Shown: in pieces, positions 26,199 to 45,713 of the stretch | Numbering within the stretch: the first letter of the stretch is position 1 | How the letters are laid out: the number at the start of each line of letters is the position of its first letter | Source: Burkholderia sp. HI2500 | Lineage (GTDB): Bacteria; Pseudomonadota; Gammaproteobacteria; Burkholderiales; Burkholderiaceae | Assembly: GCF_002223055.1 (NCBI RefSeq) | Contig: NZ_NKFL01000004.1 | Coordinates: forward strand, 1,178,001 to 1,242,000 | Direction: 5' to 3' | DNA: 64,000 nt | Position numbers and translations under genes: made by a program | Notes under the pieces: generated by a model | What the model was told of the DNA's origin: nothing | Databases searched by the model: none | Seen by the model: only the letters and a program-made list of their open reading frames with translations

Positions 26199-26660
26199 TT
26201 ACTGCTGGCGAACCCAGGTCTGCGAACGACCGAGCAACGACACGCCGATGTAACCGCGCACGACGAGTTTCTGGCCGCCGTCTTCAAGCGTCATCTTGCA
26301 CTTGTAGACCTTGCCGTTCTCTGGGTCGAGAATGTTGCCGCCGTCCCAGTGGTCGCCTTCCTTCTTCATGGCCTTGATGATCGTCATGCCCTTGATGAGC
26401 TGATCCTTGCGTTCGTCCGTGCAGGCGGTGCAGCGGCGATCGGGCGTATCGTTCGCGCCGAGGCCCTTCACGACCTTGCCGGTCAGCGCACCGTCACCGT
26501 CCTCGGCGATCTGCACGAGTGCCTTCGGCTGATGCGTGTTGTCGTCGATCGTCTGCCACATGCCGATGGGGCTGTCTGCCTGTGCGAACGTGGGAGCGGC
26601 GCAAGCGAGCAATACGCCGGCGACGGCGATGGCACGAAACGGGCGGGTCAGTTGAATCAT
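26199..26660 (-). CDS. DUF2147 exported protein
   Basis: 153 aa with a clear signal peptide (RAIAVAGVLLACAAPTFAQA, cleavage near residue 28), then the DUF2147 fold: SPIGMWQTIDDNTHQPKALVQIAEDGDGALTGKVVKGL, a CTACTDERKDQLIKGMTIIKAMKK segment with a CxxC-like cysteine pair, and the closing VRGYIGVSLLGRSQTWVRQQ. Family members are periplasmic, lipocalin-like and of unknown role. RBS AAGGAGG (reading the complementary strand) precedes the ATG. It is monocistronic, between the terminator at 26131 and the TPS operon's 3' end. Confidence 0.8.
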   Translation of the reverse strand: MIQLTRPFRAIAVAGVLLACAAPTFAQADSPIGMWQTIDDNTHQPKALVQIAEDGDGALTGKVVKGLGANDTPDRRCTACTDERKDQLIKGMTIIKAMKKEGDHWDGGNILDPENGKVYKCKMTLEDGGQKLVVRGYIGVSLLGRSQTWVRQQ

Positions 26661-26826: not shown

Positions 26827-28512
26827 TCAGTTGAGCTGATATGAGAATGCGGCGTTGATGCGCGGGCTGCGTGACGCGCTTTCGACGGGGGCGTCACCCA
26901 CCGGCTTCGCGACGTTCAGGTCGAGGCTGTAGAAGCGGCTGTCGGTGAAACGTACGCCGATACCGACCGACGACATGCGGTTCGGCGACGGTGTGCCTGC
27001 GTGCAGGTACACACGCGCCATGTCATAGGCGATGTACGGCGTAATGGATTTCATATACGTCCAGCCCGGCGTGAAGCCGCGGTTGACCTCCAGCGACATC
27101 CCCCATCCCGAGTCACCCGACGCTTCGCCCGGCTGATAGCCGAGCGCGTAACGCGTCGAGCCGAACGAGATCTGCTCGGACGTCGGCAGCGAGTCGGGGC
27201 TGTATTGCCCGGTCAGCGAAACCGACGTGCCGATCCGGAACGGCCACTCGTTGGTTTGCGTGAAGGTCGCGCCGGTACGGACGAAGGTCAGTGAGGTCGG
27301 GTCGGCGTACGTGATCGTCGAGCCGTTAACCAGGCCGGTCTGCGATTTCGATGCGCCGAGGATGTCGAACGCCTTTGCGACGTTGACGCTCAGTTTTCGC
27401 ACCTGCTTCGGTTGTACGCTCGTGTAGTCGAGCTGCAATTGCAGCACGCGTACCTGCGACCTGTTGTCGAGGGTATTGCCGTTGATTTTGTTCTGATAGT
27501 TGTCGTCGTTATGCGCTGCATAGCCCGACACCGTGCCGAGCAGGCTGCGCTGGTTGTTGAGAAGTATTGGATAGGATGCCGAAAGGCCTAGCTTCTCGTT
27601 CTTTACGGTTCGCTGGACGCTCGACGGCAGCCCCGGATTGTCAGTCGGCTTGCCGCGATAGGTACTCGCGTCGAGGCGCGTGATCAGGCCGCTGCTGCCC
27701 ACGGGTACCGCGCCGCTGAATGCGAAATAAGTTTGCTTGTCGCGCCCCGGCGGCGCCAGCGCGGAAATGCTCAGTTGCTCGCCGAACGACGTAAGGCCGT
27801 TTTCGGTCGCGGTGATGAGTCCCTGGACGCCCGGGTGGTTGAAGTCGATACCGGTGCTGACGTTGAACGGCTTGCGGTCGACCGCGAGTTCGAGCGTCGT
27901 GGCACCGTCGGTGGTTTGCGGCGGCGGTACGTTCGCCTTGACCGTGAGGCCGGGCAACAGGCCGAAGGTGTTCACGTAGCGTTCGAACGTCGCGCGGCGC
28001 AGCGGGCGATCGGCAGTGATATGCGCGGCGATTGCACGAATCTTCGATTCCATCGCACCGGGCTTGCCGGTGACCTTGACGTCCGACACGTAGCCTTCGA
28101 CAACCGTGATGCGCACGACGCCGTTCTCGAACGTCTGCGCCGGGACGAACGCGAACGACAGCGCGAAGCCGCGATCCTGGTACAGCTTCGTCACGCCGTT
28201 GGCGGTTTCGATCAGTTCGCCGATCGTGATGTCCTTGCCGACGAGCGGGGTGAAGCGACGCGAGATCTCGTCGAACGGAACGGACTTCACGCCTTCGACC
28301 TGAAATGTGGTCGGCGTCAGGTGGCGCGACAGCAACTCCTGCAATTGCGGCGCTTGCGGTGCGACCTGCACGGTCACGTTCGGGCCGGTTTTCGGCGCGT
28401 TGATCTGGGGCAGGGAGTCGAGCGGGTTACCGCCGACGCGCGTTTGTGCATGTGCCGTGCCTGCTGCCGCGATGGCGAGCAGCATCATCCATCTGTCGAG
28501 TCTGGATTTCAT
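26827..28512 (-). CDS. ShlB/FhaC-type two-partner-secretion outer membrane transporter
   Basis: 561 aa. Signal peptide (MKSRLDRWMMLLAIAAAGTAHA), a linker, a POTRA_2 domain at about residues 65-145 (FQVEGVKSVPFDEISRRFTPLVGKDITIGELIETANGVTKLYQDRGFALSFAFVPAQ), then a ShlB-type 16-strand barrel to the C-terminus (last residues FSYQLN). Such proteins export large adhesins or haemolysins. Two features are unusual. The loop-6 hallmark VRGF/Y reads ALGY (residues 456-459), so the key arginine is missing. No TpsA-type substrate gene is adjacent; instead two repeat lipoproteins lie immediately upstream on the same strand. RBS GAGGAAG precedes the ATG. Confidence 0.85.
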   Translation of the reverse strand: MKSRLDRWMMLLAIAAAGTAHAQTRVGGNPLDSLPQINAPKTGPNVTVQVAPQAPQLQELLSRHLTPTTFQVEGVKSVPFDEISRRFTPLVGKDITIGELIETANGVTKLYQDRGFALSFAFVPAQTFENGVVRITVVEGYVSDVKVTGKPGAMESKIRAIAAHITADRPLRRATFERYVNTFGLLPGLTVKANVPPPQTTDGATTLELAVDRKPFNVSTGIDFNHPGVQGLITATENGLTSFGEQLSISALAPPGRDKQTYFAFSGAVPVGSSGLITRLDASTYRGKPTDNPGLPSSVQRTVKNEKLGLSASYPILLNNQRSLLGTVSGYAAHNDDNYQNKINGNTLDNRSQVRVLQLQLDYTSVQPKQVRKLSVNVAKAFDILGASKSQTGLVNGSTITYADPTSLTFVRTGATFTQTNEWPFRIGTSVSLTGQYSPDSLPTSEQISFGSTRYALGYQPGEASGDSGWGMSLEVNRGFTPGWTYMKSITPYIAYDMARVYLHAGTPSPNRMSSVGIGVRFTDSRFYSLDLNVAKPVGDAPVESASRSPRINAAFSYQLN

Positions 28513-28656
28513 TGTTCTTCCTCGTTGGCCTTGCTCTTCGTCTTCTTTGTAATGCCGGCGCGCGACACCAGGGTGCCGCGCGCCGCGTGCCGCAATGCCG
28601 GTTGTGTTTGTACGGCCGCGCCATCCGCTCCGGCTGCGAAGGTGCGACCGTCCTCC

Positions 28657-30081
28657 TTACTTGCCAACGCTACCCAGCGTACCCAGCAACCCCGTTACCG
28701 GTGCCAGCAGCCCCGTCGAGCCGCCGCCCGCCGTTGCCGTACCCGTGACGCCGCCAACCAGCGACGTGACCGGTGCGAGCGGGCTCGATCCCCCGGATCC
28801 TGCTGCGCCGCCCACTGCTCCGGTGACAGTATTCAGCAAACCGGTGACAGGCGCGAGAGGGTTTGCACTGCCTGCGCCACCCGTTGCGCCACCGAGCGTG
28901 CCCGTGACCGTCGACACGAGATTCGTGACGGGGGCGAGCGGGCCGCCGCTGCCGCCCGCCGCACCGCTCAGTGCGCCGGTGACGGTGGAGACGAGGCCGG
29001 TGACGGGGGCGAGCGGGCTGCTGCCCGAACCGCCGGTCGCGCCGCCGAGTGCGCCCGTGAGCGAGCCGAGCGGCGTCGAGCCGAGACCCGACAGCAGGCC
29101 GCCGAGCGGATTCGTCGAGCCGGAGCCTGACGACGTGCCGTTTTGTACGGTCGCCGTCGAGCCGCCAACGAGGCTCGTGATCAGGCCGGGGATCGGTGCC
29201 GCGCCGTTCGGGCCGTTCGGGTTGACGAGGCCACCCGCGTTGGTCACGGTGTTGCCGACCGCCGTGACGAGCTGACCGACGTCGCCGACGAGCGGCTGGC
29301 TCGACGTGCCGCCCACCTGCTTGCCGGCCGAGCTGATCGCGCCGCCGACCTGGCCGAGCAGGCCCGAGACGGGTTGGCCGAGGCCGGTCGTCGTGCCGAC
29401 CTGTTGCGTGACCTGGCCGGCGGTGATCACGAGCGGCGTGATTGCCGAGCTGAGCGGTTGTGTGACCTGCTGCACGGCGCCCGACGACAGCGTCGAGCCG
29501 ATCGTCGTGCCGGCAGCCGTCAAGCCGTTGGCCACCGTGTCGAGCACGGTGCCGACCGGCGTCGTGACGGGCGCGAGCGGTGCGAGCTGGCCGGTGCCGA
29601 GCGCCTTGACCGTCGAGCTCAGGCCGGACACCGTGTTGCTCGTCGCGCCGACCACGTTGCCGAGGCCCGCGACGGTCGTGCCGACCGGATCCTTGGTCGT
29701 GCCGATCTGTCCCAGCCCGTTGCTCACCGCATCGGCGGCTGCGCCGACGATCGTGCCGGTGCTGGAGAGCGTGCTGCCGACACCCTTCGTCACGCCGTCG
29801 CCGAGGCCCGGCACGCTGATGTTGCCGACCGTGCTGCCGAGGTCGGTGGCCGTCTGGCCGACCGTGCTGACCACGCCCTTGGTGCCGGTGGACGTACCGC
29901 TGGTGCCGCTCGTGCCTGGCGTACCGCTCGTGCTCGGATTGTTATTGTCGTTGCTGCTGGTCGGCGGCGAGCTGACGCCACCGCCGCCGCAGGCGGCCAG
30001 CAGGCAGGCGGCGGCGAAGGCCGTGAGGGGCGCGCGCCACTGGCGCAGGGCGACTGTCGTGAGAGAACGTTGCTGGGACAT
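28657..30081 (-). CDS. Repeat-rich lipoprotein B, collagen-like/PLAPVTG repeats
   Basis: 474 aa. Lipoprotein signal FAAACLLAACGGGG, then a Ser/Thr/Asn linker with a few Gly-Thr-Ser triplets, a middle region of short hydrophobic/Gly-Thr-Val segments, and about five C-terminal repeats of roughly 25 residues built on [19 protein letters not shown]. It is a paralogue of the upstream gene: both contain GLGQ-(I/L)-GTTKDP or GATKDP followed by GTT. Composition is very low complexity (Gly, Thr, Val, Ser, Leu). A surface or outer-membrane-anchored structural role is likely; no enzymatic motif is visible. The FhaC-type transporter begins 144 bp downstream and the paralogue ends 40 bp upstream. Confidence 0.75.
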   Translation of the reverse strand: MSQQRSLTTVALRQWRAPLTAFAAACLLAACGGGGVSSPPTSSNDNNNPSTSGTPGTSGTSGTSTGTKGVVSTVGQTATDLGSTVGNISVPGLGDGVTKGVGSTLSSTGTIVGAAADAVSNGLGQIGTTKDPVGTTVAGLGNVVGATSNTVSGLSSTVKALGTGQLAPLAPVTTPVGTVLDTVANGLTAAGTTIGSTLSSGAVQQVTQPLSSAITPLVITAGQVTQQVGTTTGLGQPVSGLLGQVGGAISSAGKQVGGTSSQPLVGDVGQLVTAVGNTVTNAGGLVNPNGPNGAAPIPGLITSLVGGSTATVQNGTSSGSGSTNPLGGLLSGLGSTPLGSLTGALGGATGGSGSSPLAPVTGLVSTVTGALSGAAGGSGGPLAPVTNLVSTVTGTLGGATGGAGSANPLAPVTGLLNTVTGAVGGAAGSGGSSPLAPVTSLVGGVTGTATAGGGSTGLLAPVTGLLGTLGSVGK

Positions 30082-30121
30082 GATGGACTCCTCGCTGTCT
30101 TGTCGATTGATGGATGTTGGT

Positions 30122-31876
30122 TTACTTGCCGTGCGTGCCGCCGAGCAGGCCGCCGATCAGCGACGTGACGGGCGCGAGCGGATTCGACGACGAACCCGAG
30201 TTCGTGACGGCGCCCGTACCGCCGGTCAATGCCGGTGCGCCGACCGTGCTGGTCACCGTGGACACGACGTTCGTCACCGGAGCGAGCGGGCTGCTGCCGC
30301 CTGCACCGCCCGTCGCGCCGCCGAGTGCGCCCGTGACCGCGCCGAGGAGACCCGTGACCGGGGCGAGCGGGCCACCGCTCGTGCCGCCCGTGGCGCCGCC
30401 GAGTGCGCCCGTGACCGTCGAGACGAGGCCGGTGACCGGGGCGAGCGGGCCGCCGCTGCCGCCTGCTGCGCCGCCGAGTGCGCCCGTGACCGTGGAGACA
30501 AGGCCGGTGACCGGGGCGAGCGGGCCGCCGCTCGTGCCGCCTGCTGCGCCGCCGAGCGCACCCGTGACCGTCGAGACGAGGCCGGTAACCGGGGCGAGCG
30601 GGCCGCTGCCGCCGCCTGCTGCGCCGCCGAGCGCACCCGTGACCGTCGAGACGAGGCCGGTAACCGGGGCGAGCGGGCCGCTGCCGCCGCCTGCTGCGCC
30701 GCCAAGTGCACCCGTGACCGTCGAGACGAGGCCGGTAACCGGGGCGAGCGGGCTGCTGGCGCCACCCGTTGCGCCGCCGAGCGTACCCGTGACCGTCGTG
30801 AGGAGCCCCGTGAGCGGGGCGAGCGGGTTGGTCACGCCGCCGCTGCCGCCCGTGAGCAGGCCGCCGACGGCCTTCACGGTGTTGCCCGTCGACGAGACCG
30901 TGTTGCCAAGGCCGGTCGTGACAGGGTTGCCGCCGGCCGACGCGAGCAGGGCGCCGGCCTGGTTCAGGCCGTTGCCGACCGTGCCGAGCAGCGTGTTGAC
31001 GGGCGCGCCGAGGCCGGTGGCGGTGCCGATCGTCTGGGTCGTCTGGCCGACCATCGTCGTGATCGGCGTGATGGCCGAGCTGACCGTCTGCGTGACTTGC
31101 TGGATCGGGCCGGTCGACAGTGCGTTGGTGAGGGTGGTGCCGCCGTTCGATACGGCGCCGCCGAGCGTCGACACGAGGCCGCCGACGGCGCCCGTGACCG
31201 GTGCGAGCGGCGTCAGCGGACCGCTGCCGAGGCTCGAGACCAGGTTGCCCGTCTGCGTGACCGCGCCGCCGAGCTGGTTGACCACGCCGCCCGTGCTGGC
31301 GAGCGTGGTGCCGAGCGGATCCTTCGTCGCGCCAAGCTGGCCGAGACCGTTGCCAAGGCCGTTGCCGAGTGCGGTCACGGCGCCGCCAACGCTCTGCACG
31401 ATGCCGCCCGCGGCTTGCGTGGTGGCCGGGTTGACACCTGGCAGCGACTGGTTGGCGATGACGGAGCCGAGGCCCGAGACGGTCCCACCGGCGCTCGTGA
31501 TGATGTTGCTGCTGCTTGCGAGGACAGTTCCCACTGCGTTCGACGACACCCCCGAGGTGCCGCTCGTGCCCGACGTACCGCTGGTTCCGGAGGTGCCGCT
31601 CGTGCCCGAGGTGCCGCTGGTGCCGGAGGTACCGCTCGTACCGGACGTACCGCTGGTGCCCGAGGTGCCGCTCGTGCCCGAGGTACCGCTCGTGCCCGAA
31701 GTGCCGCTCGTGCCGGAGGTGGAGATCGTATCGCCGCCGCCCGAGCTCGAGCCGCCGCCGAGACCCTGGCTGATGGAGCCGGAACCGCCGCACGCGGAGA
31801 GGGAAAGCATGGCTGAAACGGTGGCCGCGATCAGAGTCGTCCGGAACACGCCATGAGGGATAACCTTAATGTCCAT
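30122..31876 (-). CDS. Repeat-rich lipoprotein A with Gly-Thr-Ser stalk and PLAPVTG repeats
   Basis: 584 aa. Lipobox [11 protein letters not shown], a Gly/Ser linker, 19 uninterrupted Gly-Thr-Ser triplets (collagen-like periodicity but no proline), a roughly 250-residue middle region, and nine C-terminal units of about 25 residues ([22 protein letters not shown]). The last units are degenerate, ending [13 protein letters not shown]. The triplets suggest a stalk and the repeats a self-associating surface module; both are inference. First gene of the apparent operon, 64 bases after the predicted sigma-54 promoter. On + this region has long open frames that are artefacts of the repeats. Confidence 0.75.
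30265..30835 (-). repeat. Tandem 75-78 bp repeats encoding PLAPVTG units
   Basis: Seven complete units in a row with near-identical DNA (for example the CCGGTGACCGGGGCGAGCGG segment recurs at the start of most), plus a degenerate unit towards 30170. Unit length varies by one or two codons in the Gly-rich joint (GGGS, GGTSG, GGSG, GGAGGS). The high nucleotide identity between neighbours points to recent expansion and to copy-number variability among strains. Confidence 0.85.
31551..31724 (-). repeat. Nineteen 9-bp repeats encoding Gly-Thr-Ser triplets
   Basis: On + the unit alternates between CCGCTCGTG-like and CCCGAGGTG-like ninemers, an 18-bp higher-order period. The 9-bp unit keeps the frame whatever the copy number, so slippage would change stalk length without breaking the gene. 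Confidence 0.85.
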
Positions 31877-31939
31877 TTCGTCCTCGCATTAAAAATGTGT
31901 TGTGAACTTCGTTGTGTTGAGTGGTGCGCGGACTACTCT

Positions 31940-31954
31940 GCAACTGTCGTGCCA
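31940..31954 (-). promoter_or_regulatory. Sigma-54 (-24/-12) promoter of the lipoprotein/TPS operon
   Basis: The complementary strand reads TGGCAC-GACAG-TTGC, an exact match to the consensus TGGCAC-N5-TTGC, continuing with A. Transcription would start near 31928, about 52 bases before the ATG at 31876. It needs an enhancer-binding ATPase; one is encoded at 44322-45713. Confidence 0.8.
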
Positions 31955-32194: not shown

Positions 32195-32410
32195 CCTATC
32201 GTAAATCCTATGTGTAAGTCGTACCGAAACGCCGTACAAATACGTTGTGCTCCTGGTCATTTTTTTCTATCCAAGCCGTTAAAAGAGGTTGGAAGTTAAA
32301 TAGGATCGGAGATAGAATCCGGAGCAGATGTAAGGAAATGTACGGTTCGGTACACAACGTTCGAGGAGGGTCACTATCGCGAATGTTAACTTGCATCAAA
32401 TGTTGAGCCA

Positions 32411-32424
32411 TGCCCCTCGGGGCA
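32411..32424 (+). promoter_or_regulatory. Palindrome TGCCCC-TC-GGGGCA upstream of flp
   Basis: Six-base perfect arms, five bases before TATAAA at 32429. It is placed where a repressor or activator of the flp promoter would bind. Confidence 0.4.
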
Positions 32425-32553
32425 ATCTATAAAGAAAGCGCACCCGGTTGTCGTTACAGCAGATGTGGCGAACAGCGCGGGGCAAGGGCCAGATATGCGG
32501 GGACGTATACGTATAAAAGGCCAAAGAACGTAAATACAGGCACGAGGAATAAA

Positions 32554-32760
32554 ATGAAAGCAATCATCAAGCGCTTCCTTAAGGAAAGCAACGGGGTTAC
32601 CGCGATCGAGTACGGGCTGATTGCGGGTCTTATCGCTGTCGCGATCCTGGCTGGTGCTTCAACGATCGGCACTAATCTTGGCAATATGTTCACGAACCTC
32701 GGGACATGTCTGACCACCCCGAGCGGCACGAACTGTACGGCTGCCAGTATCTTTAAGTAA
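32554..32760 (+). CDS. flp: Flp-type pilin
   Basis: Major subunit of the Tad pilus, 68 aa. The prepilin motif is KESNG-VTAIEYGLIAGLIAVAIL, cleaved after the Gly, with the conserved Glu-Tyr pair at mature positions 5-6. The hydrophobic stretch that follows forms the filament core. The C-terminal part (TCLTTPSGTNCTAASIFK) has two cysteines that may form a disulfide, which is uncommon in short Flp pilins. RBS GAGGAA lies six bases before the ATG; upstream in-frame ATGs are ignored. It is the first gene of the Tad cluster. Confidence 0.93.
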   Translation: MKAIIKRFLKESNGVTAIEYGLIAGLIAVAILAGASTIGTNLGNMFTNLGTCLTTPSGTNCTAASIFK

Positions 32761-32877
32761 CCCACCTGGCGTTAATTGGTACGACCTCGAAACATTGAGT
32801 CGTCGTCTTGATGTTGTGGCGGGCGGATTGCCGTTGGCAGTCCGTCCTCCGCGACATTTGTCGCAGGTTGCGGTGCG

Positions 32878-33378
32878 ATGGCACATTTCATTTTCAGCGG
32901 GGTGTTCCTGGTCTGGGCTGCGTTCGTCGCAACCAGCGACATCCGTTATCGGCGCGTTTCGAATTCGCTCGTTCTGGCGGGGTTGACCTTTGGCCTGGGC
33001 GGAGCGTATTTCAACGCCGGTCCATTCGGCATTCTCCCGGCGCAGGCGATGATCGGCCTGCTGGCCGGGTTGGTCGCCTTTATTCCGCTTTTTTTGCTGC
33101 GCGTCATGGGCGCGGCGGACGTCAAGATCTTTGCCGCGATCGGCGTGTGGTGCGGCGCACATGCGCTGCTGTGGATCTGGATTGCCGCCAGTCTTGTCGC
33201 CGGTATTCATGCTCTGGCCCTGATGTTGCTGTCGCGCACGTCGATCGGCGCGTTGTGGCAACGGGGCCAGCCGGCAATGGTGCTTGGCAAATACCGGGCA
33301 ACGCCTTACGCGGCATGTCTCATGGCACCAGCTGCCGCATGGGTTGTCTTTCTTGTCGCAAGGGGGGGCGTGCGATGA
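32878..33378 (+). CDS. cpaA: Tad prepilin peptidase (TadV/CpaA, A24 family)
   Basis: Membrane aspartic peptidase that trims Flp and the TadE/TadG pseudopilins. It is 166 aa with four or five membrane helices. The two catalytic aspartates lie in TSDIRYRRVSN (Asp 21) and GAADVKI (Asp 81, GxxD context). The methyltransferase domain of larger PilD-like enzymes is absent, as is normal for TadV. The stop overlaps the next start (ATGA), so it is coupled to tadE. Confidence 0.9.
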   Translation: MAHFIFSGVFLVWAAFVATSDIRYRRVSNSLVLAGLTFGLGGAYFNAGPFGILPAQAMIGLLAGLVAFIPLFLLRVMGAADVKIFAAIGVWCGAHALLWIWIAASLVAGIHALALMLLSRTSIGALWQRGQPAMVLGKYRATPYAACLMAPAAAWVVFLVARGGVR

Positions 33379-33821
33379 AACGACAGATGCGTCCGCGTGG
33401 ACGCCGTCGGCAGCGTGGCGCGACGGCGGTCGAGTTTGCGATCGTGTTCCCGTTGTTGTTCGTGATTTTCTACGGCGTCGTCAGTTTCGGGATGATCTTC
33501 ACGATTCAGCAGAGCCTGACATTTGCCGCCAGCGAAGGCGCACGGGCCGGGTTGGTTTACGCCCCCACTCTTGCGGCGCGCATAACGAACGCCACAACGA
33601 CTGCGCAGAGTGTCGTGGCCTGGCTGAATGTCGGTACGCCGCAAGTCGTGGCACCGCCGTGCAGTTACGACACGTCGGTTCCGCCGTCGTTGTACTGCCT
33701 GTCGGTTACGGTGAATTACACCCCCAAGGATTGGATAACGACCATGCCGTTTCTGGGAAGCATACTGAATCGACCGTTGACGAGTACGGCGGTCGTGCAG
33801 ATTCCGCAGTCGATCCTTTGA
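33375..33821 (+). CDS. tadE: TadE-like pseudopilin
   Basis: 148 aa. A basic N-terminus (MKRQMRPRGRRRQRG) precedes ATAVEFAIVFPLLFVIFYGVVSFG, the TadE signature with the Gly cleavage site and Glu at mature position 5. The remainder is a small periplasmic domain with a C-x-C-like pair (PPCSYDTSVPPSLYCLSV). TadE-type proteins are minor pilins processed by the TadV peptidase and needed for Flp assembly. Start overlaps the peptidase stop. Confidence 0.88.
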   Translation: MKRQMRPRGRRRQRGATAVEFAIVFPLLFVIFYGVVSFGMIFTIQQSLTFAASEGARAGLVYAPTLAARITNATTTAQSVVAWLNVGTPQVVAPPCSYDTSVPPSLYCLSVTVNYTPKDWITTMPFLGSILNRPLTSTAVVQIPQSIL

Positions 33822-33907
33822 AGTACGTATCGTGACGCGAAGGGCCAGCTGACGCGCGAATCACGCAGAAACCCATCGGACTTTCATCCCGGCATCCACA
33901 CAACAAC

Positions 33908-34846
33908 ATGGCCAACAATTTAACGAAGATCATCGCGGGACTGCTGATTGCAATCGCCGTATTGCTCGGAATCTACGCGTGGATGCTCGGGCGCAGCACG
34001 CAGAATGCGACGCCAGTTCAGCAAACCGTGGCGGCCAGCCCGTTTCCTGTCGTGATCGCGACACGGGTGTTGCCCGCCGGCCAGCCGATCACGGCCGACG
34101 CACTGAAGATCAAGCAGACGGCACCGGTACCGACGGGTGCGTTTGCCGATCCGTCCGTGCTCGTTGGCCGGGTGCCGGCAGCGGATATTCCGGCTTCGTC
34201 GCCGGTTGTCGCGGGAGCGCTGGTGTCGGGGCTTGCCGAGGACGTACAACCGGGCGAGCGTGCGGTCGCAGTGCGGGTCGACGAAACCAATGCGGTCGGT
34301 AACCGGTTGCGGCCCGGAAATTTCGTCGACGTATTTCTGAATTTGAAGCGCGAAGGCGGGGGCACGATGCTTGACGGCGAAGTTTCGCAGACGCAGGCGC
34401 GGTTGCTGTTGTCGAAGGTGCGGGTGTTGTCGTTCGGAGACGCGACACCCGATCGAGATAGCGGCAACACTGCCAACGGCAACAACGGTCAACCGTCCGG
34501 TGTCCGCATCGCGGTGCTTGCGGTGCCGACCGCGCAAGTCGATGCGCTGACGCTCGGCGAGGCGAGTGGGCGCCTGACGTTCGCGTTGCGCAACCCGCGC
34601 GACGACGAGCTTGCGATACAAACGGTCGCGGTGCGGACGGACAACAAGCTGTCGCCGTCGGCGCTCGCCGCCGCTGGCGTCTCGCTGCAGCAACTATCCG
34701 GCACACAGAGAACCGCGGTGGCCAATGTGAACGTGCCGCCGTTGCCATCGCGTCTGCCGCCGGCGGTGCGGACGGGAGGGGGCGGCGGAGGCGGAAGCGG
34801 CATCGAGGTGATCCGCGGCGGCCGGTCGGAAACGGTTGCCTATTGA
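33908..34846 (+). CDS. cpaB: Flp pilus assembly protein CpaB/RcpC
   Basis: 312 aa, anchored by one N-terminal helix (IIAGLLIAIAVLLGIYAWML). It is followed by an SAF domain (FPVVIATRVLPAGQPITADALKIKQTAPVPTGAFADPSVLVGRV) and the RcpC/CpaB domain (ERAVAVRVDETNAVGNRLRPGNFVDVFLN). The C-terminus is a Gly-rich loop (TGGGGGGGSGIEVIRGG). In Tad systems this periplasmic protein works with the CpaC secretin, which is the next gene; their coding regions nearly abut. Confidence 0.92.
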   Translation: MANNLTKIIAGLLIAIAVLLGIYAWMLGRSTQNATPVQQTVAASPFPVVIATRVLPAGQPITADALKIKQTAPVPTGAFADPSVLVGRVPAADIPASSPVVAGALVSGLAEDVQPGERAVAVRVDETNAVGNRLRPGNFVDVFLNLKREGGGTMLDGEVSQTQARLLLSKVRVLSFGDATPDRDSGNTANGNNGQPSGVRIAVLAVPTAQVDALTLGEASGRLTFALRNPRDDELAIQTVAVRTDNKLSPSALAAAGVSLQQLSGTQRTAVANVNVPPLPSRLPPAVRTGGGGGGGSGIEVIRGGRSETVAY

Positions 34847-34893
34847 ACGACATCGACGGTCATCGATATCAGCGACGACAAGTAAAGGGCCGC

Positions 34894-36240
34894 GTGACGG
34901 TCTACCAAACAATGAAAAACACACTGATTGGATTCGCGATTGCTATCTGCACCATGACTTTGGCGTCGTTTGCGAGCGCGAACGGCACGATCGAGCTGGC
35001 GGTCGGCGCGCAGCGGCAGCTTTCGGCGGGCCGTGCGCTGCAGCGTGTCGCGGTTGGCGATCCGACAATCGCCGACGTACTGATCATGAAGGGCAGCCGC
35101 TCAGGTACCGTGCTGCTGACGGCGAAGGCACCCGGCGCGACGAATGTGATGCTGTGGGAGCGCGGTCACGACGAACCGACGATCTGGAACGTCGAGGTTG
35201 TCGACGCGGCGGCACAAGCGGTGCTCGACGGCTCCACGCCGCGTGTGAATGCATACGGTGGCACTGCCGTGCTGCAGGGGTCGTCGGCGTCGCTCGATGC
35301 GCATGCGCGCGCGGCCGCAGTCGGCAAGAACATGAGCGGGAAGGGCGCCGTGATCGATCGCTCGACGATCGCGGGCAAGAGCGTCGTGCAGGTCGACGTG
35401 CGGGTCGTTGAATTCAGCCGCTCGGTCCTCAAGCAAGTCGGGTTCAATTTCTTCAAGCAGAGCAACGGCTTTTCGTTCGGATCGTTTTCGCCCGGCGGCG
35501 TGCAATCGTACAACGGTGGATCCCCCGGCGGGGCGGGGTACATTCCGACGCTCGGCTCGCCTGTCTCGTCCGCGTTCAACCTGGTCGTGAACGCTGCGGG
35601 CCGCGGGATCTTCGCCGACCTGTCGCTGCTCGAGGCGAACAATCTCGCCCGCGTGCTTGCGGAGCCGACGCTCGTTGCGTTGTCCGGCCAGAGCGCGAGC
35701 TTCCTCGCCGGTGGCGAGATTCCGGTACCGTCACCGCAAGGGCTTGGCTCGACCGCGATCCAGTGGAAGCAGTACGGTGTCGGACTGTCGCTGACGCCCA
35801 CAGTGCTGAGCCCGCAGCGGATTGCGTTGAAGGTTGCGCCTGAATCGAGCCAACTCGATTACGTGAACAGCGTAACGATCAGCGGTGTTGCGGTGCCGGG
35901 GATCACAACGCGTCGTGCCGACACGACGGTCGAGCTCGGCGACGGCGAGAGCTTCGTGATTGGCGGCCTGATCGATCGCCAGACCATGTCGAACGTCAAC
36001 AAGGTGCCGCTGCTCGGTGATTTGCCGATCATCGGTACGTTCTTCAAGAATCTGAACTATCAGCAGAACGACAAGGAATTGCTGTTCATCGTGACGCCGC
36101 ATCTCGTCGCACCGATCGCTAAGGGAGCGGTATTGCCCGCGACGCCTGGTGAGCTGTCTGAGCAGCGGGACGGGCCGGTCTGGAAATCGTATTTGGGCGG
36201 AGCAGCATCGCCGGATGCAGCTCCGGGTTTTTCGAAATGA
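34894..36240 (+). CDS. cpaC: Tad pilus secretin CpaC/RcpA
   Basis: Outer-membrane gate for the Flp pilus, about 448 aa. Signal peptide MKNTLIGFAIAICTMTLASFASA. An N-terminal pilus-formation domain (IELAVGAQRQLSAGRALQRVAVGDPTIADVLIMKG) leads into a ring-building region (VIDRSTIAGKSVVQVDVRVVEFSRSVLKQVGFNF) and the secretin barrel (LARVLAEPTLVALSGQSASFLAGGEIPVP ... VPLLGDLPIIGTFFKNLNYQQNDKELLFIVTPHLV). The GTG at 34894 has AAAGGG four bases upstream; the ATG at 34912 is the alternative start. Residues GSFSPGGVQSYNGGSPGG form a flexible loop. Confidence 0.92.
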   Translation: MTVYQTMKNTLIGFAIAICTMTLASFASANGTIELAVGAQRQLSAGRALQRVAVGDPTIADVLIMKGSRSGTVLLTAKAPGATNVMLWERGHDEPTIWNVEVVDAAAQAVLDGSTPRVNAYGGTAVLQGSSASLDAHARAAAVGKNMSGKGAVIDRSTIAGKSVVQVDVRVVEFSRSVLKQVGFNFFKQSNGFSFGSFSPGGVQSYNGGSPGGAGYIPTLGSPVSSAFNLVVNAAGRGIFADLSLLEANNLARVLAEPTLVALSGQSASFLAGGEIPVPSPQGLGSTAIQWKQYGVGLSLTPTVLSPQRIALKVAPESSQLDYVNSVTISGVAVPGITTRRADTTVELGDGESFVIGGLIDRQTMSNVNKVPLLGDLPIIGTFFKNLNYQQNDKELLFIVTPHLVAPIAKGAVLPATPGELSEQRDGPVWKSYLGGAASPDAAPGFSK

Positions 36241-36300
36241 GTGCGATGCATCGCGAGTCGCGACGTATTGCCACGCCTTGCGTAATCGGGGGTGTTCAAC

Positions 36301-37575
36301 ATGAACGCGCGAAACCAATCATTGTGTGAACCCGCCGTGACAGACTATTTCGTTTGCGCATCGCAACAGGAGGCGCACGTCCGCTGGTTGGCCGATACGC
36401 TTGTATCGGCCGGTGCGGTCGAGCCTGCGTCACTTGAGCCTGGCGTGCTCGCGCAGCGCATTACGGGTCTCAACCCTGCTCTCGTATTCATTGATTTTTC
36501 CGGTGGCAGCACAGCGGCGAGCGTGGCGGCCGCAGCGGTACGCGCATCCCATCCGGGCCTGCCGATTGTTGCGCTCGGCTCGCTCGCACAGCCGGAGAGC
36601 ACGCTGGCTGCATTGCGTGCAGGCGTGCGCGATTTCATCGACGTGTCGGCTCCGCCAGAGGAGGCATTGCGCACGACTCGCGGACTGCTTGCCAACGTCG
36701 GCGAGCCGGCGAGCCGCCATGGCAAGGTCGTCGCATTGCTTGGCGCGCGCGCCGGCATGGGTGTGAGCACGCTCGCTGCGAATCTCGCCGTATGGCTGCA
36801 GAAGCGCGCGGTGAGTCCGGGGGGGAGCGGCGAGTCGAATGGCGGCACACCGGCCGGTCGCCAGACTGCGCTCGTCGACCTGGGACTGCCGGCAGGCGAC
36901 GGCGCGCTGTTCCTGAATACCCGCTGCGAATTCCATTTCATCGATGCGGTTCACAACCTGCGCCGCATCGACCGAACCTTCGTGAATACCGCACTGACCC
37001 GGCATGAGAGCGGTGTTGCATTGACGACGCTTCCTGCCGATCTCGGCGGGCTGCGCGATGTCTCGTATGCATCGTGTGCCGGATTGCTGAACCGGTTTCG
37101 AGCCTTCTTCGATCAGCAGATCGTCGATCTCGGTGGTTTTTCGAATCGCGAGTTCGTTGCCCAGATGACGACGTCGGCCGATGAGGCGTGGCTCGTCTGC
37201 GATCAGGGCGTCGCGTCGATCGTGTCCGCAGCCGATCTGCTCACCGGGCTGCGCGACGCGGGTGTCGACACCGATCGCGTCCGGCTCGTCGTCAACCAGT
37301 ACGATCCCGCACTCGACCTGACACCTGCGCAGATTGCCGAGCGTCTCGGCCTGGCGCTGGTGGGTACGTTGCCGTCGCGACGCGTCGCGATCGGCCATGC
37401 GGCAAACCAGGGCCGGCTCATCGTCGACATGACGGAGCGCGACCCGTACGTTCGCGCGCTCGAGTCGCTTGCCGCGCGGCTGCCGGGCGTGTCGGTCAGA
37501 TCGACCGCCACGCGACCGGCATCCGGCCTGTCTGCGCTGAAGCGCTTCATTCAACCCTCGTCCAAGCGGTCGTAA
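36301..37575 (+). CDS. cpaE: Tad pilus localisation ATPase-like protein CpaE/TadZ
   Basis: 424 aa. The N-terminal receiver-like domain lacks an obvious phosphoacceptor pocket (ALVFIDFSGG ... PIVALGSLAQPESTLAALRAGVRDFIDVSAPPEEALRTTRGLL). The C-terminal MinD/ParA-like domain has the deviant Walker A LGARAGMGVSTLAANLA (no lysine in the usual first position) and DLGLPAGDGALFL. TadZ proteins place the Tad machine at the pole. The ATG at 36301 is preferred over an in-frame GTG at 36292 because GGGGGTG lies at better spacing. Confidence 0.88.
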   Translation: MNARNQSLCEPAVTDYFVCASQQEAHVRWLADTLVSAGAVEPASLEPGVLAQRITGLNPALVFIDFSGGSTAASVAAAAVRASHPGLPIVALGSLAQPESTLAALRAGVRDFIDVSAPPEEALRTTRGLLANVGEPASRHGKVVALLGARAGMGVSTLAANLAVWLQKRAVSPGGSGESNGGTPAGRQTALVDLGLPAGDGALFLNTRCEFHFIDAVHNLRRIDRTFVNTALTRHESGVALTTLPADLGGLRDVSYASCAGLLNRFRAFFDQQIVDLGGFSNREFVAQMTTSADEAWLVCDQGVASIVSAADLLTGLRDAGVDTDRVRLVVNQYDPALDLTPAQIAERLGLALVGTLPSRRVAIGHAANQGRLIVDMTERDPYVRALESLAARLPGVSVRSTATRPASGLSALKRFIQPSSKRS

Positions 37576-37578
37576 GTG

Positions 37579-38934
37579 ATGGCACACGACATTCAATTCG
37601 CCGACGGCGCAGCGCCGTTCTCTCAGACGCAGCAATTCCACGATATCAAGAATGCCGCGCATGAACATCTGCTGACGCGCATCGAAGAACTGGGCGCCGA
37701 GTTCGGCCGATGGTCCCGACAGGCGATCAACCAGTTCGTCGATCTCGAGATCGACAGCTTCGTGCGCCTGCGCCGCATTCCGCTCAACGAGAACGAGGTG
37801 CGTGCGATCGCCGAAGCGCTGACCAAGGAGCTTGCGGGCTTCGGGCCGATCGAGGACCTGCTCGCGGACCCGGCCGTCGAGGACATCCTGATCAACGGTT
37901 ACAACGACGTGTACGTGTCGCGTCACGGGATCCTCGCGAGGCTGCCGGTGCGCTTTACCGACAACGCGCACCTGCTGCGGATCGTGCGCCGGATTCTCGC
38001 GCCGATCGGTCGTCGTCTCGACGAGTCTAACCCGATGGTCGACGCGCGGCTGCCCGACGGTGGCCGCGTGAACGTCGTGATCGAGCCGCTGTCGATCGAC
38101 GGCCCGGTCGTATCGATCCGGAAATTTCGCAAGGATCCACTGAAGCCGTCCGATCTGCTCGGCAACGGCACGTTCAACGAAGAGATCAACACGCTGCTCC
38201 AGGCAGCGGTCGAGGCACGCTGCAACATTCTCGTGTCGGGCGGCACGAGTTCCGGCAAGACGTCGCTGCTCAACGCGCTCGCGTTCCACATTCCGGAGAT
38301 CGAGCGTGTCGTGACGATCGAGGATACTGCGGAGCTGTCGCTGAACCACCCGCACGTCGTGCGGCTCGAAAGCCGTCCGGGCGGGTTCGACGGCACCGGT
38401 GTCGTGTCGATTCGCGACCTGTTGCGCAATACACTGCGGATGCGCCCTGACCGGATCATCGTCGGCGAAGTGCGCGGCGGCGAAGTGCTGGAAATGCTGC
38501 AGGCGATGAATACCGGTCACGACGGCTCGATGGGCACCGTGCATGCGAGCTCGCCGCGTGAGTGTCTGTACCGTCTCGAGATGCTTGCCGGCTTTGCTGG
38601 CTTCCAGGGCACCGAATCGAGCCTGCGCCGGCAAATCGCGAACGCGATCGACTTCATCGTGCAGATCGGGCGTCTGTCGAACGGACGGCGGCGGATCTTG
38701 TCGATCACCGAAGTGACCGGATTGTCCGACAACATCATCGCGACGCAGGAGCTTTACCGCTATGAAGCGCGCGTGACGCCGGAGGGCGAGGAAGTCGACA
38801 ACTGGGAAACGCTGGGCATTCATCCGCATTCGCCGAAGCTCGCACGCTTCCGTCAGACGCTGACGAGCGGCGGGTTTGGCGGTGGCTTCGGGGGGGGCGG
38901 GTTCGGCCGCGGCGGCGGGGGCTTCAATGTATAG
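37579..38934 (+). CDS. tadA: Tad pilus assembly ATPase TadA/CpaF
   Basis: Hexameric secretion ATPase that powers Flp pilus extension, 451 aa. The N-terminal domain ends near RRILAPIGRRLDESNPMVDARLPDGGRVNVVIEPLS. The motor has Walker A GGTSSGKTS (Lys 227), the Asp box VVTIEDTAELSL, Walker B DRIIVGEVRGGEVLEMLQAMNTGHDGSMGTVHA and a His box. An unusual Gly/Phe-rich tail (GGFGGGFGGGGFGRGGGGF) closes the protein. The last 8 bases overlap tadB. Confidence 0.95.
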   Translation: MAHDIQFADGAAPFSQTQQFHDIKNAAHEHLLTRIEELGAEFGRWSRQAINQFVDLEIDSFVRLRRIPLNENEVRAIAEALTKELAGFGPIEDLLADPAVEDILINGYNDVYVSRHGILARLPVRFTDNAHLLRIVRRILAPIGRRLDESNPMVDARLPDGGRVNVVIEPLSIDGPVVSIRKFRKDPLKPSDLLGNGTFNEEINTLLQAAVEARCNILVSGGTSSGKTSLLNALAFHIPEIERVVTIEDTAELSLNHPHVVRLESRPGGFDGTGVVSIRDLLRNTLRMRPDRIIVGEVRGGEVLEMLQAMNTGHDGSMGTVHASSPRECLYRLEMLAGFAGFQGTESSLRRQIANAIDFIVQIGRLSNGRRRILSITEVTGLSDNIIATQELYRYEARVTPEGEEVDNWETLGIHPHSPKLARFRQTLTSGGFGGGFGGGGFGRGGGGFNV

Positions 38935-39928
38935 CGCGATGGCATGGGTGCTGGCTTTCGCGATGCTGTGCGTCGCGGCGGCGGTGATGCTGTGGCGTCA
39001 CGCGGAGAACCTGCGCGTACGGACCGATGCGAAGCGCTTTATCGACAGCCGGCTCGAACCGGGCGCACGTGCCGGGGTGGCCGCACAGGCGGCGCGGTCG
39101 TCGACGGCAGGCGCCGCGCGTGCAGTGCCGCCGCAACCTGGCACCGCACGGAGCGCATTGTCCGATACGTTCTGGAAGCATCAATATGCGATCGCATCCG
39201 AGTATCTGACGAACCTGGCGAGTCGCGCGGGGATCGAGGATGCGCGCGGCAAAGCGCTTGTCGCGCTCGCCGCGCTGGTTGCGATCGCGGTGTTCGCGGG
39301 CAACCGCGGTGGCGCGCTCGCGTGCTTTGCCGCGCTTGCGTGCGGATGCTCGATTTTCGGCGTCTGGCTCGCGTCGCGAATCCAGCGGCGCAGGCTGAAG
39401 ATTGTCCGGCAGATTCCGTCGTTCCTCGACGGCATCGTGCGTCTTGTGACGCTTGGCAATAGCGTGCCGGCGGCATTCCAGTCCGCGCTGCTGACGACCG
39501 AGGAGCCGCTTCGCGGCTGTCTCGACCACGTGTCGAGGATGCTGCGAGGCGGTGTCGAAATCGATCGCGCAATGGTGCACATCGCGAAAATCTACCGGAC
39601 CGAGGAGTTCGAACTCGTCGGTTCCGTGTTGCGACTGTCGGTCAAGTACGGCGGCCGCGCGGACGTGATGCTCGAGCGCATGGCCGTGTTCATGCGCGAC
39701 CTCGAACAGGCGGAGCGCGAGTTGACAGCAATGTCGGCAGAAACGCGGTTGTCGGCGTTCGTGCTCGTGATGTTGCCGATCGGGATCGGCAGCTTTATCG
39801 TCGTAACCAATCCGAAGTATCTGCACGGGATGTGGAACGACCCGGGCGGGCGGACGCTCCTGATGTTCGCGTTCCTGTTGCAATTGGCCGGCAGTGTCTG
39901 GCTGTATCGAATGGCTCGGCTCAGGTGA
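38927..39928 (+). CDS. tadB: Tad inner-membrane platform protein TadB
   Basis: 333 aa with a type II secretion GspF-like domain (RQIPSFLDGIVRLVTLGNSVPAAFQSALLTTEEPLRGCLDHVSRMLRGGVEIDRAMVHIAKIYRTEEFELVGSVLRLSVKYGG) and helices at the N-terminus (AMAWVLAFAMLCVAAAVMLW), mid-chain and C-terminus. It forms the pilus platform with TadC, acting above TadA. The ATG at 38927 overlaps the tadA stop; the longer frame from 38876 would read through the Gly-rich tail of tadA and is rejected. Confidence 0.92.
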   Translation: MYSAMAWVLAFAMLCVAAAVMLWRHAENLRVRTDAKRFIDSRLEPGARAGVAAQAARSSTAGAARAVPPQPGTARSALSDTFWKHQYAIASEYLTNLASRAGIEDARGKALVALAALVAIAVFAGNRGGALACFAALACGCSIFGVWLASRIQRRRLKIVRQIPSFLDGIVRLVTLGNSVPAAFQSALLTTEEPLRGCLDHVSRMLRGGVEIDRAMVHIAKIYRTEEFELVGSVLRLSVKYGGRADVMLERMAVFMRDLEQAERELTAMSAETRLSAFVLVMLPIGIGSFIVVTNPKYLHGMWNDPGGRTLLMFAFLLQLAGSVWLYRMARLR

Positions 39929-39932
39929 TGCT

Positions 39933-40928
39933 ATGACAGCGACTCAGATCGGAGCGATTGCCTTGGCGAGCGGCGCACTCGGCGTGCTGCTGTTCGGCGT
40001 GATCGCATTGTTACGCGCAAGTGCCGCGACGCGCGCCGAGCGCGCGCTTGTCGATGCGCTCGACCGGCGCATGGCCACGCTCGAAGCAGCGAAAGCGCGG
40101 ACCGCGCCGGACGGCGGCGAGGCGCCAGCCAAGCCTGACGTCCGGCGGGGACAGCGCGTCGAACGTATTCTCGATCGTCTGTCGGCGGCCGGTGTGCGCT
40201 GGCTCGATACCGGACTCGGCAAATACGCTGTCGCGGAAGAGGATCGCCGCCTGCTCGAGCAATGCGGTTACGTCGACACGCGCACGCGCGGGCTGTTCCT
40301 GAGCGCGCGGGTCGCGTGTGGGATCGGGCTGCCGCTGCTGTTCGCGATTTTCGCGAGCGGCCATATGAAGGGCAGCATGTGGATGGTCGGCATGTTTGCC
40401 GCCTTCGGGCTCGGCTTCATGTTGCCGAAGCTATACGTGCAGCGCCGCGCGGCGGCGCGGCGTCAAAGCGTGATCGACGAACTGCCGTTGCTCGTCGACA
40501 TGCTGCGTTTGCTGCAAGGCGTCGGATTGTCGCTCGATCAGAGCCTGCAGGTCGTGACGAACGATTTTCGCGGAATGATGCCGGTACTGTCGTCGGAAAT
40601 GGGGATCGCACAGCGTCAGTTCGCGGCAGGCCGGACGCGCGAGCAGTCGTTGCAGCGTCTGTCCAGCGGATTCGACAACGAGGATCTGCGCGCGATCGTG
40701 CGATTGATGGTGCAGGTCGACAAACATGGCGGTGCGGTGCAGGAGCCGCTCAAGCAGTTCGGCGACCGGTTGCGTGAGACGCGCCGCGCGATGTTGCGTG
40801 AACGGATTGGCCGACTGACCGTGAAGATGACGGGCGTGATGGTGTTGACGTTGCTGCCCGCCTTGCTGATCGTGACAGCCGGGCCGGGTTTGCTGGCGGT
40901 GACACACGCACTGTCGTCGCGCCATTGA
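39933..40928 (+). CDS. tadC: Tad inner-membrane platform protein TadC
   Basis: 331 aa, paralogous to TadB, with a GspF-like domain (DELPLLVDMLRLLQGVGLSLDQSLQVVTNDFRGMMPVLSSEMGIAQRQFAAGRTREQSLQRLSSGFDNEDLRAIVRLMVQVDKHGGAVQEPLKQF) and four membrane helices. The start at 39933 lies four bases past the tadB stop, with an AGG upstream. The stop nearly overlaps tadD, so tadA-tadB-tadC-tadD are tightly packed. Confidence 0.92.
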   Translation: MTATQIGAIALASGALGVLLFGVIALLRASAATRAERALVDALDRRMATLEAAKARTAPDGGEAPAKPDVRRGQRVERILDRLSAAGVRWLDTGLGKYAVAEEDRRLLEQCGYVDTRTRGLFLSARVACGIGLPLLFAIFASGHMKGSMWMVGMFAAFGLGFMLPKLYVQRRAAARRQSVIDELPLLVDMLRLLQGVGLSLDQSLQVVTNDFRGMMPVLSSEMGIAQRQFAAGRTREQSLQRLSSGFDNEDLRAIVRLMVQVDKHGGAVQEPLKQFGDRLRETRRAMLRERIGRLTVKMTGVMVLTLLPALLIVTAGPGLLAVTHALSSRH

Positions 40929-40945
40929 CGGTGGAAGGAAAGACG

Positions 40946-41791
40946 ATGAAGCGGATCAGCGGGATGGCATCGCAAATAGGTGCGGCTGCGGCAGTAGTGC
41001 TGCTGCTCGGGGCGTGCGCAACCAAGGAAAACGGGTACGGCGTCAGCTCGCAGACCGAGCGTGCGGCGCTGATGCAGGCGGCCGATCAGAAGCAGTCCGT
41101 GCCGGATACGCCCGGGATGTACCTCGGTCTGATCCAGCGGATGCAGGGGCAGGGGCTCTACTTTGCATCGCTCGCGCATATCGATGCGTACGACAAGACC
41201 TATGGCGCGATTCCGGAGTCGATCCTGTTGCGCGCGGATGCACTGCGGATGACCGAACAGCCGGCCGCAAGCGCAGCCGTCTATACGCAACTGCTGAAAA
41301 CGCCGCTTGCCGCGCGAGGCTATCGCGGGCTCGGGTTGATCGCGGGCGCGGCAGGCGATTTCGATCGTGCGGCGCAGGTGCTCGCGCAGGCGTCGGATCT
41401 TGCGCCGACCGATGCGTCGCTGCTGTCCGATCTCGCATACGCGAAGTTGCGCAGCGGCGACGTCGTCGGTGCGCGGGTGCCGTTGATGAAGGCGGCCGAA
41501 CTGGATCAGCGCAATCCCAAGATCGTCAGCAATCTTGCGCTTTACCTGATCGCGGCGGGGCGTACACAGGATGCTCAGAGGTTGATGAATCAGCAACATC
41601 TGTCGGCGGATATCCGCAAGGACATCGTCGGCGACGCGGCGAAGATCGTCGCGGCGGCACGGGCGCAGCAGCGTGCGGTCGCGACACCATCGGTGGTGTC
41701 GCGTCGCGCTGCCGCAGCGCCGATTACACCGATGGCGAATAATTTCGGCTATGACCAGACCGTGCCACTGTTGCAGCGTTTTGCACAATGA
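40946..41791 (+). CDS. tadD: TadD-type TPR lipoprotein
   Basis: 281 aa. Lipoprotein signal GAAAAVVLLLGACATKENG, then tetratricopeptide repeats (GYRGLGLIAGAAGDFDRAAQVLAQASDLAPTDASLLSDLAYAKLRSGDVVGARVPLMKAAELDQRNPKIVSNLALYLIAAGRTQDAQRLM). TadD is the pilotin-like or scaffolding factor for secretin assembly in Tad systems. The ATG at 40946 has GGAAGGAAAG upstream and gives the proper signal; the frame opens at 40925. Confidence 0.88.
   Translation: MKRISGMASQIGAAAAVVLLLGACATKENGYGVSSQTERAALMQAADQKQSVPDTPGMYLGLIQRMQGQGLYFASLAHIDAYDKTYGAIPESILLRADALRMTEQPAASAAVYTQLLKTPLAARGYRGLGLIAGAAGDFDRAAQVLAQASDLAPTDASLLSDLAYAKLRSGDVVGARVPLMKAAELDQRNPKIVSNLALYLIAAGRTQDAQRLMNQQHLSADIRKDIVGDAAKIVAAARAQQRAVATPSVVSRRAAAAPITPMANNFGYDQTVPLLQRFAQ

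Positions 41792-44306: not shown

Positions 44307-45713
<1,407 letters not shown>

Follow-up and report, generated by a model that had tools for sequence, protein, structure and literature searches.

Pairing of a TpsB-type barrel with collagen-like lipoproteins in several bacterial groups suggests a little-noticed surface route for lipoproteins

Introduction

The way in which surface lipoproteins cross the outer membrane has, to our knowledge, been settled in few cases. The locus treated here lies in a stretch of 64,000 nucleotides of Burkholderia sp. HI2500 (contig NZ_NKFL01000004.1, positions 1,178,001 to 1,242,000), the whole of which is called the window in the following. Three collinear open reading frames on its minus strand encode, in the order of transcription, lipoprotein A, lipoprotein B, and a barrel of the TpsB type, the transporter of two-partner secretion, which ordinarily exports a TpsA protein carrying a TPS domain.

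The closest described relative is a gene row of Burkholderia cenocepacia J2315 consisting of bcal1520 (lipoprotein), bcal1522 (1686 bp), bcal1523 and bcal1524 (Collagen_mid lipoproteins), and bcal1525 (Flp pilin) (PMC10224339; this and the other papers are cited from excerpts), which was equated with the window by gene order and length, not by sequence. In Table 1 of that source bcal1522 is listed as exported heme utilization-related (PMC10224339). Contact with host-derived vesicles induces the lipoprotein and Flp genes jointly (PMC7970998), and the bcal cluster shows quorum-sensing effects (PMC2753556). BCAL1524 was detected in outer-membrane vesicles, its deletion lowers autoaggregation, and the group of Burkholderia surface proteins to which it belongs has been studied as vaccine antigens (PMC10303873). 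In 2015 collagen-like proteins rich in Gly-Thr-Ser (GTS) were described from other Burkholderia (PMC4565658). Among the matches listed in a search of open-access papers, judged by title, counts, and the start of the abstract, none was found that ties Collagen_mid lipoproteins to a TpsB-type transporter or deals with the role of the barrel.

A preliminary description of the window had confirmably read the three genes as two lipobox lipoproteins followed by a POTRA/ShlB barrel, a layout borne out by the open reading frames and Pfam, and had put them forward as an undescribed system. The latter does not hold, as the lipoproteins and the operon (bcal1524 to bcal1520) are already in print (PMC10224339, PMC7970998, PMC2753556). 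Membership of the lipoproteins in the Collagen_mid family and the presence of the same operon in B. cenocepacia (PMC10224339) go beyond that description. On the evidence given below, the barrel is probably an Omp85/TpsB-type translocator with the Collagen_mid lipoproteins as its cargo, a reading to which a probability of about two in three is assigned.

Co-Occurrence and Gene Order

The genome samples searched comprise 120 genomes of the family (barrel threshold E<=1e-20), 32 of one genus, g11, 369 of the class (barrel profile, E<=1e-40), and 63 of the order of G301. In the family sample the barrel is present in 59 and Collagen_mid in 58 genomes, and these are the same genomes except for G117, the barrel of which has an internal stop. 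Among the 32 genomes of g11, 31 have the barrel and 29 have Collagen_mid, all 29 together with the barrel; G117 and G138 have the barrel without Collagen_mid and G010 has neither. In the class sample Collagen_mid exceeded the cut-off in three genomes (the window's, G301, and G504), in all of which the barrel lies directly downstream. The barrel profile added two further genomes, G500, where a true TPS-domain gene adjoins the match, and G161, where the match is at a contig end; G183 and G280, with Collagen_mid matches under the cut-off and no barrel match at 1e-40, were omitted from the co-occurrence count. In the order of G301, where the genes are distributed patchily over 63 genomes, Collagen_mid was found in 8, the barrel profile in 10, and both in 8 (Fisher p 1.2e-8, uncorrected for kinship). 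Of the two barrel-only genomes there, G527 has a barrel starting at a contig end, and G567 has a weaker barrel of the TpsA side with an adjoining TPS gene. In G551 the Collagen_mid gene and the barrel are on two separate contigs. Taken together, the barrel is present in 88 of 88 distinct sampled genomes with Collagen_mid over the cut-off (58 + 21 + 8 + 1), a count uncorrected for kinship and including G068 and G562, where the barrel frame is broken. The less trivial part of this co-occurrence is that in g11, with its unlinked genes, and in the patchy order of G301.

A scan of named genomes yielded 23 loci, 7 of them overlapping the other genome samples, from Methylophaga and its kin, Halomonas, Bisbaumannia, Rahnella and other Enterobacterales, the alphaproteobacteria Tepidicaulis and a Rhodobiaceae bacterium, and Pseudomonas defluvii. 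Gene order was compared in 49 loci which have a barrel of the window's clade and a length of 6 kb or more, copies being removed and upstream meaning the same strand within 3 kb. Many of them are close kin (six Enterobacterales loci seem to represent a single chromosomal site), and the 49 are therefore not independent cases. A Collagen_mid gene is located upstream on the same strand in 40 of the 49, in Burkholderiaceae, Methylophaga, Halomonadaceae, Enterobacterales, and two alphaproteobacteria; in two the barrel starts at a contig end, and the others are weighed further below. In Methylophaga, Halomonas, and Rahnella the pair forms small two-gene units. Downstream of a Methylophaga barrel (L064, 8442-9419) a protein with weak similarity to the Collagen_mid lipoproteins (tblastn 1.5e-8), lacking a lipobox and a Pfam match, is perhaps a second cargo.

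The plasmid collection, outside the 49, has the barrel on five Burkholderiaceae replicons, and in the two which were read, of Cupriavidus metallidurans (L113) and Caballeronia insecticola (L114), both lipoprotein and Tad genes adjoin it. Four Azospirillum matches are about 26% identical; the stretch of the one read, L112, gave no match to either Collagen_mid or TPS. There a gene resembling TpsB is annotated next to one for an adenylate/guanylate cyclase, with a right-handed beta-helix repeat protein encoded about 1 kb away, which may mark a further TpsB branch whose partner is unusual.

Independence from TpsA Proteins

No TPS-domain gene adjoining the window barrel was found, as the preliminary description had stated, nor did any of the 49 clade loci contain a TPS match. 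The window's genome has four ShlB matches and five TPS-domain matches, and three of the barrels have TPS genes near by coordinates. One TPS-domain gene (G000:C4:1392384) has no ShlB match near, and the nearest on its contig is the window barrel, at a distance of about 187 kb. The neighbours of this gene (L007, L046) resemble by eye what we take to be a chaperone-usher cluster. At E<=0.001, a TPS match was lacking in 17 of 69 barrel genomes and in 12 of the 64 that are near-complete (at least 90% complete, at most 5% contaminated). One of the window's genus, G102, is 100% complete, encodes a barrel 91% identical to that of the window, and has no TPS match genome-wide. Because 17 of 69 barrel genomes are without a TPS match, a TpsA protein is not the general partner, and the orphan gene at C4:1392384 is ruled out in this role by the TPS-less genomes, G102 included. 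The idea that the partner is the repeat lipoproteins instead thus gained from linkage, from co-occurrence, and from barrel genomes devoid of TPS.

The Barrel Protein

The barrel matches POTRA_2 (PF08479) with 1.5e-19, over the cut-off, and ShlB (PF03865) with 1e-18 (68.3 bits against a cut-off of 22.7, model positions 64-311 of 311). Pfam gives one POTRA match. Aligned by hhalign to a profile of six TpsBs, it matches end to end over 512 columns (1.3e-36); against FhaC the value is 4e-13 over profile positions 102-541, and the second-POTRA region is within the aligned columns.

In a phylogenetic tree, in which some long branches were flagged, 42 barrel rows formed one clade with support of 100/100, separate from 13 TpsBs near TPS genes. 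The TpsA side comprised these 13, labelled as TpsA neighbours, and L066, upstream of which the DNA is missing. For L001-L003 TPS genes are near by coordinates, L067 and L100 were obtained via the barrel profile and have an adjoining TPS gene, and the remaining rows were picked for a nearby TPS match, so that their neighbours are a matter of choice; among these, L105 and L111 were assigned by a nearby match and not by individual adjacency, the nearby TPS gene of L107 was missed by the TPS profile of this analysis, and L045 is a second copy of L002. Duplicates, the broken barrels L047, L075/L088, and L097, and 11 closely related rows were excluded.

In FhaC the arginine of the L6 motif (VRGY/F) is engaged in a salt bridge, and activity reportedly requires this motif (PMC5422565). 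The window barrel has the tetrad ALGY in this place and lacks the arginine of the VRG[FY] motif of TpsB. The same arginine is missing in 21 of 22 Burkholderiaceae rows, the window's among them, where leucine, glutamine, or methionine is found and the tetrad reads [AG]x[GA]Y, and is kept as [AG]R[GA]Y in all 20 other rows of the clade. On the TpsA side VR[GA][FY] occurs in 11 of 13 rows, GRGY in L067 and L100, and GLAY in L066. Loss of the arginine as a mark of the whole clade was therefore rejected, being confined to Burkholderiaceae.

The Collagen_mid Lipoproteins

Both lipoproteins match Collagen_mid (PF15984) far above the cut-off of 31.1 bits, A with 1.8e-67 (227.5 bits) and B with 3.4e-63 (213.5 bits), and both contain the lipobox cysteine. 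The preliminary description had counted 19 Gly-Thr-Ser triplets in one of the two; the total in A is 20 with a longest unbroken run of 18, and B has at most 3 in a row. The nine (A) and five (B) PLAPVTG-type repeats were found again downstream of the Collagen_mid domains, and each domain contains one further copy. As one copy is situated inside the domain, the repeat tails look like multiplied pieces of Collagen_mid. The length of repeat tails and GXX tracts varies widely among Collagen_mid lipoproteins.

Hydrophobicity along 68 Collagen_mid rows has a strong period of 100 degrees (z +19), with no signal at 120 or at 160-180 degrees; 19 TPS-domain rows gave no comparable peak in the identical test. 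From this periodicity the domain is probably an alpha-helical one that resembles neither collagen nor a beta helix. Homology of Collagen_mid to the TPS domain was rejected by profile comparison (Prob 0.03), and a profile search of solved structures gave nothing convincing (best E 0.024). Scored by pattern, 72 of the 77 Collagen_mid frames have a lipobox; of the five without one, four are truncated by the locus end and one has a broken frame (L085). According to the Lol rule the residue following the lipobox cysteine signals the membrane destination. It is glycine, serine, alanine, or threonine, and aspartate in none of the Collagen_mid lipoboxes found, which points to the outer membrane.

The window's genome has five Collagen_mid matches and a single barrel of this clade. 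At C6:2091514 and C6:2096771 of the same genome (G000) a Collagen_mid gene and an ordinary TpsB/TpsA pair are separated by about 5 kb, which is probably due to chance.

Promoter, Tad Locus, and Other Features of the Window

The sigma-54 site of the preliminary description was recovered as the one perfect match to TGGCACN5TTGCW, at 31954-31939 (-), 62 nt upstream of the first start codon; with one mismatch allowed, the window contains 2 matches against 1.59 expected by chance. Among 21 loci of relatives, 8 (L018, L019, L021, L025, L031, L034, L036, and L048) have near-consensus sites, placed by arithmetic on coordinates, just upstream of a Collagen_mid gene, in L031 and L048 before both divergent Collagen_mid copies, and in the other 13 the pattern gave nothing placeable there. 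By its position, the sigma-54 activator at 44322-45713 is a likely regulator.

Tad genes are found beside the pair in 17 of 17 fetched linked loci of the family, in the window, in L113 and L114, and in 4 of 6 Halomonadaceae loci. A tblastn search with the Tad proteins of the window detected none beside the pair in Methylophaga-type, Enterobacterales, and alphaproteobacterial loci and in L065 (flanks 6 to about 10 kb). RcpC occurs in 75 of 120 family genomes, and 16 of those 75 have neither barrel nor lipoprotein. Tad as a core part of the system was rejected, since the pair occurs in loci where none was detected; Tad is optional. Conservation of both the gene order and the Tad linkage had been in question: the order is kept in the 40 loci counted above, and Tad is not a necessary part.

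The features are collected in the following table. A DUF2147 gene adjoining the pair was not seen outside the family. Next to this gene in the window, the open reading frame at 25655-26095 resembles an IS4/5-type transposase (PF13340, DUF4096); it has counterparts of 51-67% identity at this position, flanked by zapE and the DUF2147 gene, in many family loci, and could be a domesticated gene and not an insertion sequence.

Table 1. Features of the barrel/lipoprotein locus and its surroundings, in window coordinates.
Feature	Position	Strand	Remarks
Lipoprotein A	30122..31876	-	584 aa; lipobox LSAC, GTS tract, Collagen_mid, nine C-terminal PLAPVTG repeats; positional match of bcal1524
18 consecutive Gly-Thr-Ser triplets of A	31553..31714	-	low-complexity linker from lipid anchor to Collagen_mid
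Collagen_mid domain of A	30848..31444	-	residues 145-343; Pfam
C-terminal repeat region of A	30125..30826	-	
Lipoprotein B	28657..30081	-	474 aa; lipobox LAAC, Collagen_mid, five C-terminal repeats; positional match of bcal1523
Collagen_mid domain of B	29221..29814	-	residues 90-287; Pfam
C-terminal repeat region of B	28660..29016	-	
TpsB-type outer-membrane barrel of the Collagen_mid-associated clade	26827..28512	-	561 aa; matches bcal1522 by position and length (1686 bp)
POTRA_2 domain of the barrel protein	28093..28314	-	residues 67-140; Pfam
ShlB match of the barrel protein	26947..27744	-	residues 257-522; Pfam
ALGY replacing the VRG[FY] tetrad, loop L6 of the barrel	27136..27147	-	
Sigma-54 promoter-like site TGGCACGACAGTTGCA	31939..31954	-	perfect pattern match
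DUF2147 exported protein	26199..26660	-	likely operon tail (position of bcal1520)
Flp/Tad pilus locus, divergent, optional neighbour	32410..41791	+	gene labels by eye, except RcpC (PF16976 match)
Sigma-54 activator (Sigma54_activat, HTH_8)	44322..45713	+	far end of the Tad locus

Discussion

The pair is best read as working like two-partner secretion, with the barrel exporting helical lipoproteins instead of a beta-helical TpsA; it would not be two-partner secretion in the strict sense, since a TPS-domain partner was looked for and not found. The course of recognition and translocation and the final topology of the lipoproteins are what we infer from the sequences. The lipoproteins would be acylated and then routed to the outer membrane, where the POTRA domains may recognise Collagen_mid, which would sit where TpsA has its TPS domain. 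The helical domain and the repeat tail could then cross the barrel and adopt their fold on the outside, and the lipoprotein would be held on the cell by its acyl anchor and flexible GTS/Gly-rich linker. A single barrel would presumably handle anything from one to several lipoproteins, and unlinked paralogues may be among them. In the window's genome the sigma-54 promoter divergent from Tad probably drives the pair, and pilus and lipoproteins may appear jointly at surface contact.

Several observations weigh against this proposal. Co-absence within a genus is mostly weak evidence, because one deletion can remove adjacent genes. The genes are unlinked in 6 of the 49 loci, all from g11, where in the loci read the lipoproteins remain beside Tad and the barrel is elsewhere; unlinked genes in most relatives would have spoken against a partnership, and among those mapped they are found in one genus. 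G138, an assembly of 500 contigs, has an open barrel and no Collagen_mid match, and P. defluvii (L098) has a clade barrel (5782-7449) whose 6 kb flank contains no Collagen_mid gene. The induction paper names bcal1522 nowhere (0 occurrences; PMC7970998). Barrel function may furthermore have shifted in the Burkholderiaceae branch only, and the window's branch may work differently in detail, because 21 of 22 rows there are without the L6 arginine. Two observations concern individual loci: in P. defluvii a gene for a type IV leader peptidase (PF01478) is located near the barrel, and in G117 of g11 (L047), which has no Collagen_mid match, the unlinked barrel gene contains a stop as if decayed after loss of the partner, a single case.

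In the BAM complex lipoproteins work together with an Omp85 protein. The lipoproteins of the pair could likewise be periplasmic accessories shaping or gating the barrel, as BamB-E do for BamA (BamB is named in PMC4104836), with something else as the true cargo. This is the main rival, and it is unlikely rather than negligible: a constant pairing would look identical, and PSORTb places BCAL1523 at the cytoplasmic membrane (PMC10224339). Five Collagen_mid matches for one clade barrel in the window's genome fit it poorly, as do repeat tails and GXX tracts of widely varying length, such as surface proteins have, and the presence of BCAL1524 in outer-membrane vesicles together with the reduced autoaggregation upon its loss (PMC10303873). 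By eye, moreover, the different neighbourhoods share no other gene fit as cargo. A further reading, distinctly less probable, assigns the barrel, as an outer-membrane component, to the Tad pilus or to a matrix bound to it, and regards the lipoproteins as pilus accessories. Tad adjoins the pair in all fetched linked loci of the family, in the window, and in most Halomonadaceae loci, sigma-54-like sites precede the lipoprotein genes, and these are induced together with Flp (PMC7970998); this is set against the groups in which tblastn found no Tad beside the pair and the RcpC-bearing genomes devoid of barrel and lipoprotein.

Ordinary two-partner secretion, in which the barrel would export a TpsA encoded elsewhere (here G000:C4:1392384) and the lipoproteins would be mere neighbours, draws on the end-to-end likeness to TpsB and on the orphan TPS gene for which the window barrel is the nearest ShlB on the contig. 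Such a partner elsewhere had been named as what would overturn the lipoprotein reading; the orphan gene does exist, yet G102 has a barrel 91% identical to that of the window without any TPS match. As a general rule the explanation is refuted by the TPS-less barrel genomes, and with the clade separate and none of its loci containing TPS it is very improbable for the window too. Least credible of all is that the genes are chance or hitch-hiking neighbours. Many linked family loci do lie at one chromosomal place (the sucA-odhB-lpd-zapE side); distant families, however, keep the same pair and order in contexts which were told apart by eye, and in g11, where the genes are unlinked, all 29 lipoprotein genomes nevertheless have the barrel.

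Export of the lipoproteins by the barrel is thus preferred. A more far-reaching version has slightly better than even odds: a separate two-partner branch of beta-, gamma-, and alphaproteobacteria, in which an acylated alpha-helical Collagen_mid protein would replace TpsA, Collagen_mid would be the secretion signal for POTRA, and the barrel would offer surface lipoproteins a route unrelated to Slam, the L6 arginine having been lost in Burkholderiaceae. Should the proposed export by the barrel hold true, TpsB barrels can export helical, lipid-anchored cargo, a TPS domain and beta-helix folding are not general needs of the pathway, and Burkholderia surface proteins such as BCAL1524 gain their missing export partner.

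Comparison with Known Systems

The window barrel resembles TpsB proteins (FhaC, ShlB, CdiB; type Vb) in its POTRA_2 and ShlB domains and in a profile alignment that runs over the full length and takes in the second-POTRA region. It differs from them in that no TPS partner was found for barrels of its type and a lipoprotein stands in its stead, and in the L6 tetrad [AG]x[GA]Y of Burkholderiaceae; from two-partner secretion the clade is set apart by the TPS-domain partner that was tested for and not found. Slam is likewise an outer-membrane translocon for surface lipoproteins (PMC9090332), and the window barrel differs in having no Slam-type domain among its Pfam matches up to E=1, which are POTRA_2 and ShlB only. 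With Bucl3 the window lipoproteins share GTS repeats and lipoprotein status only (PMC4565658). The collagen-like proteins BCAL1523 and BCAL1524 of the B. cepacia complex agree in lipoprotein nature, GTS triplets, Collagen_mid, and the order bcal1522-1524 beside flp (PMC10224339); the papers on them treat the lipoproteins, while the barrel figures there as the 'heme utilization-related' entry (PMC10224339). In bcpAIOB with BcpO, finally, one Burkholderia operon again contains a gene of the TpsB type and, in some species, that of a lipoprotein (PMC5422565), but there the cargo is a TpsA of the CdiA/BcpA type and the lipoprotein is an accessory.

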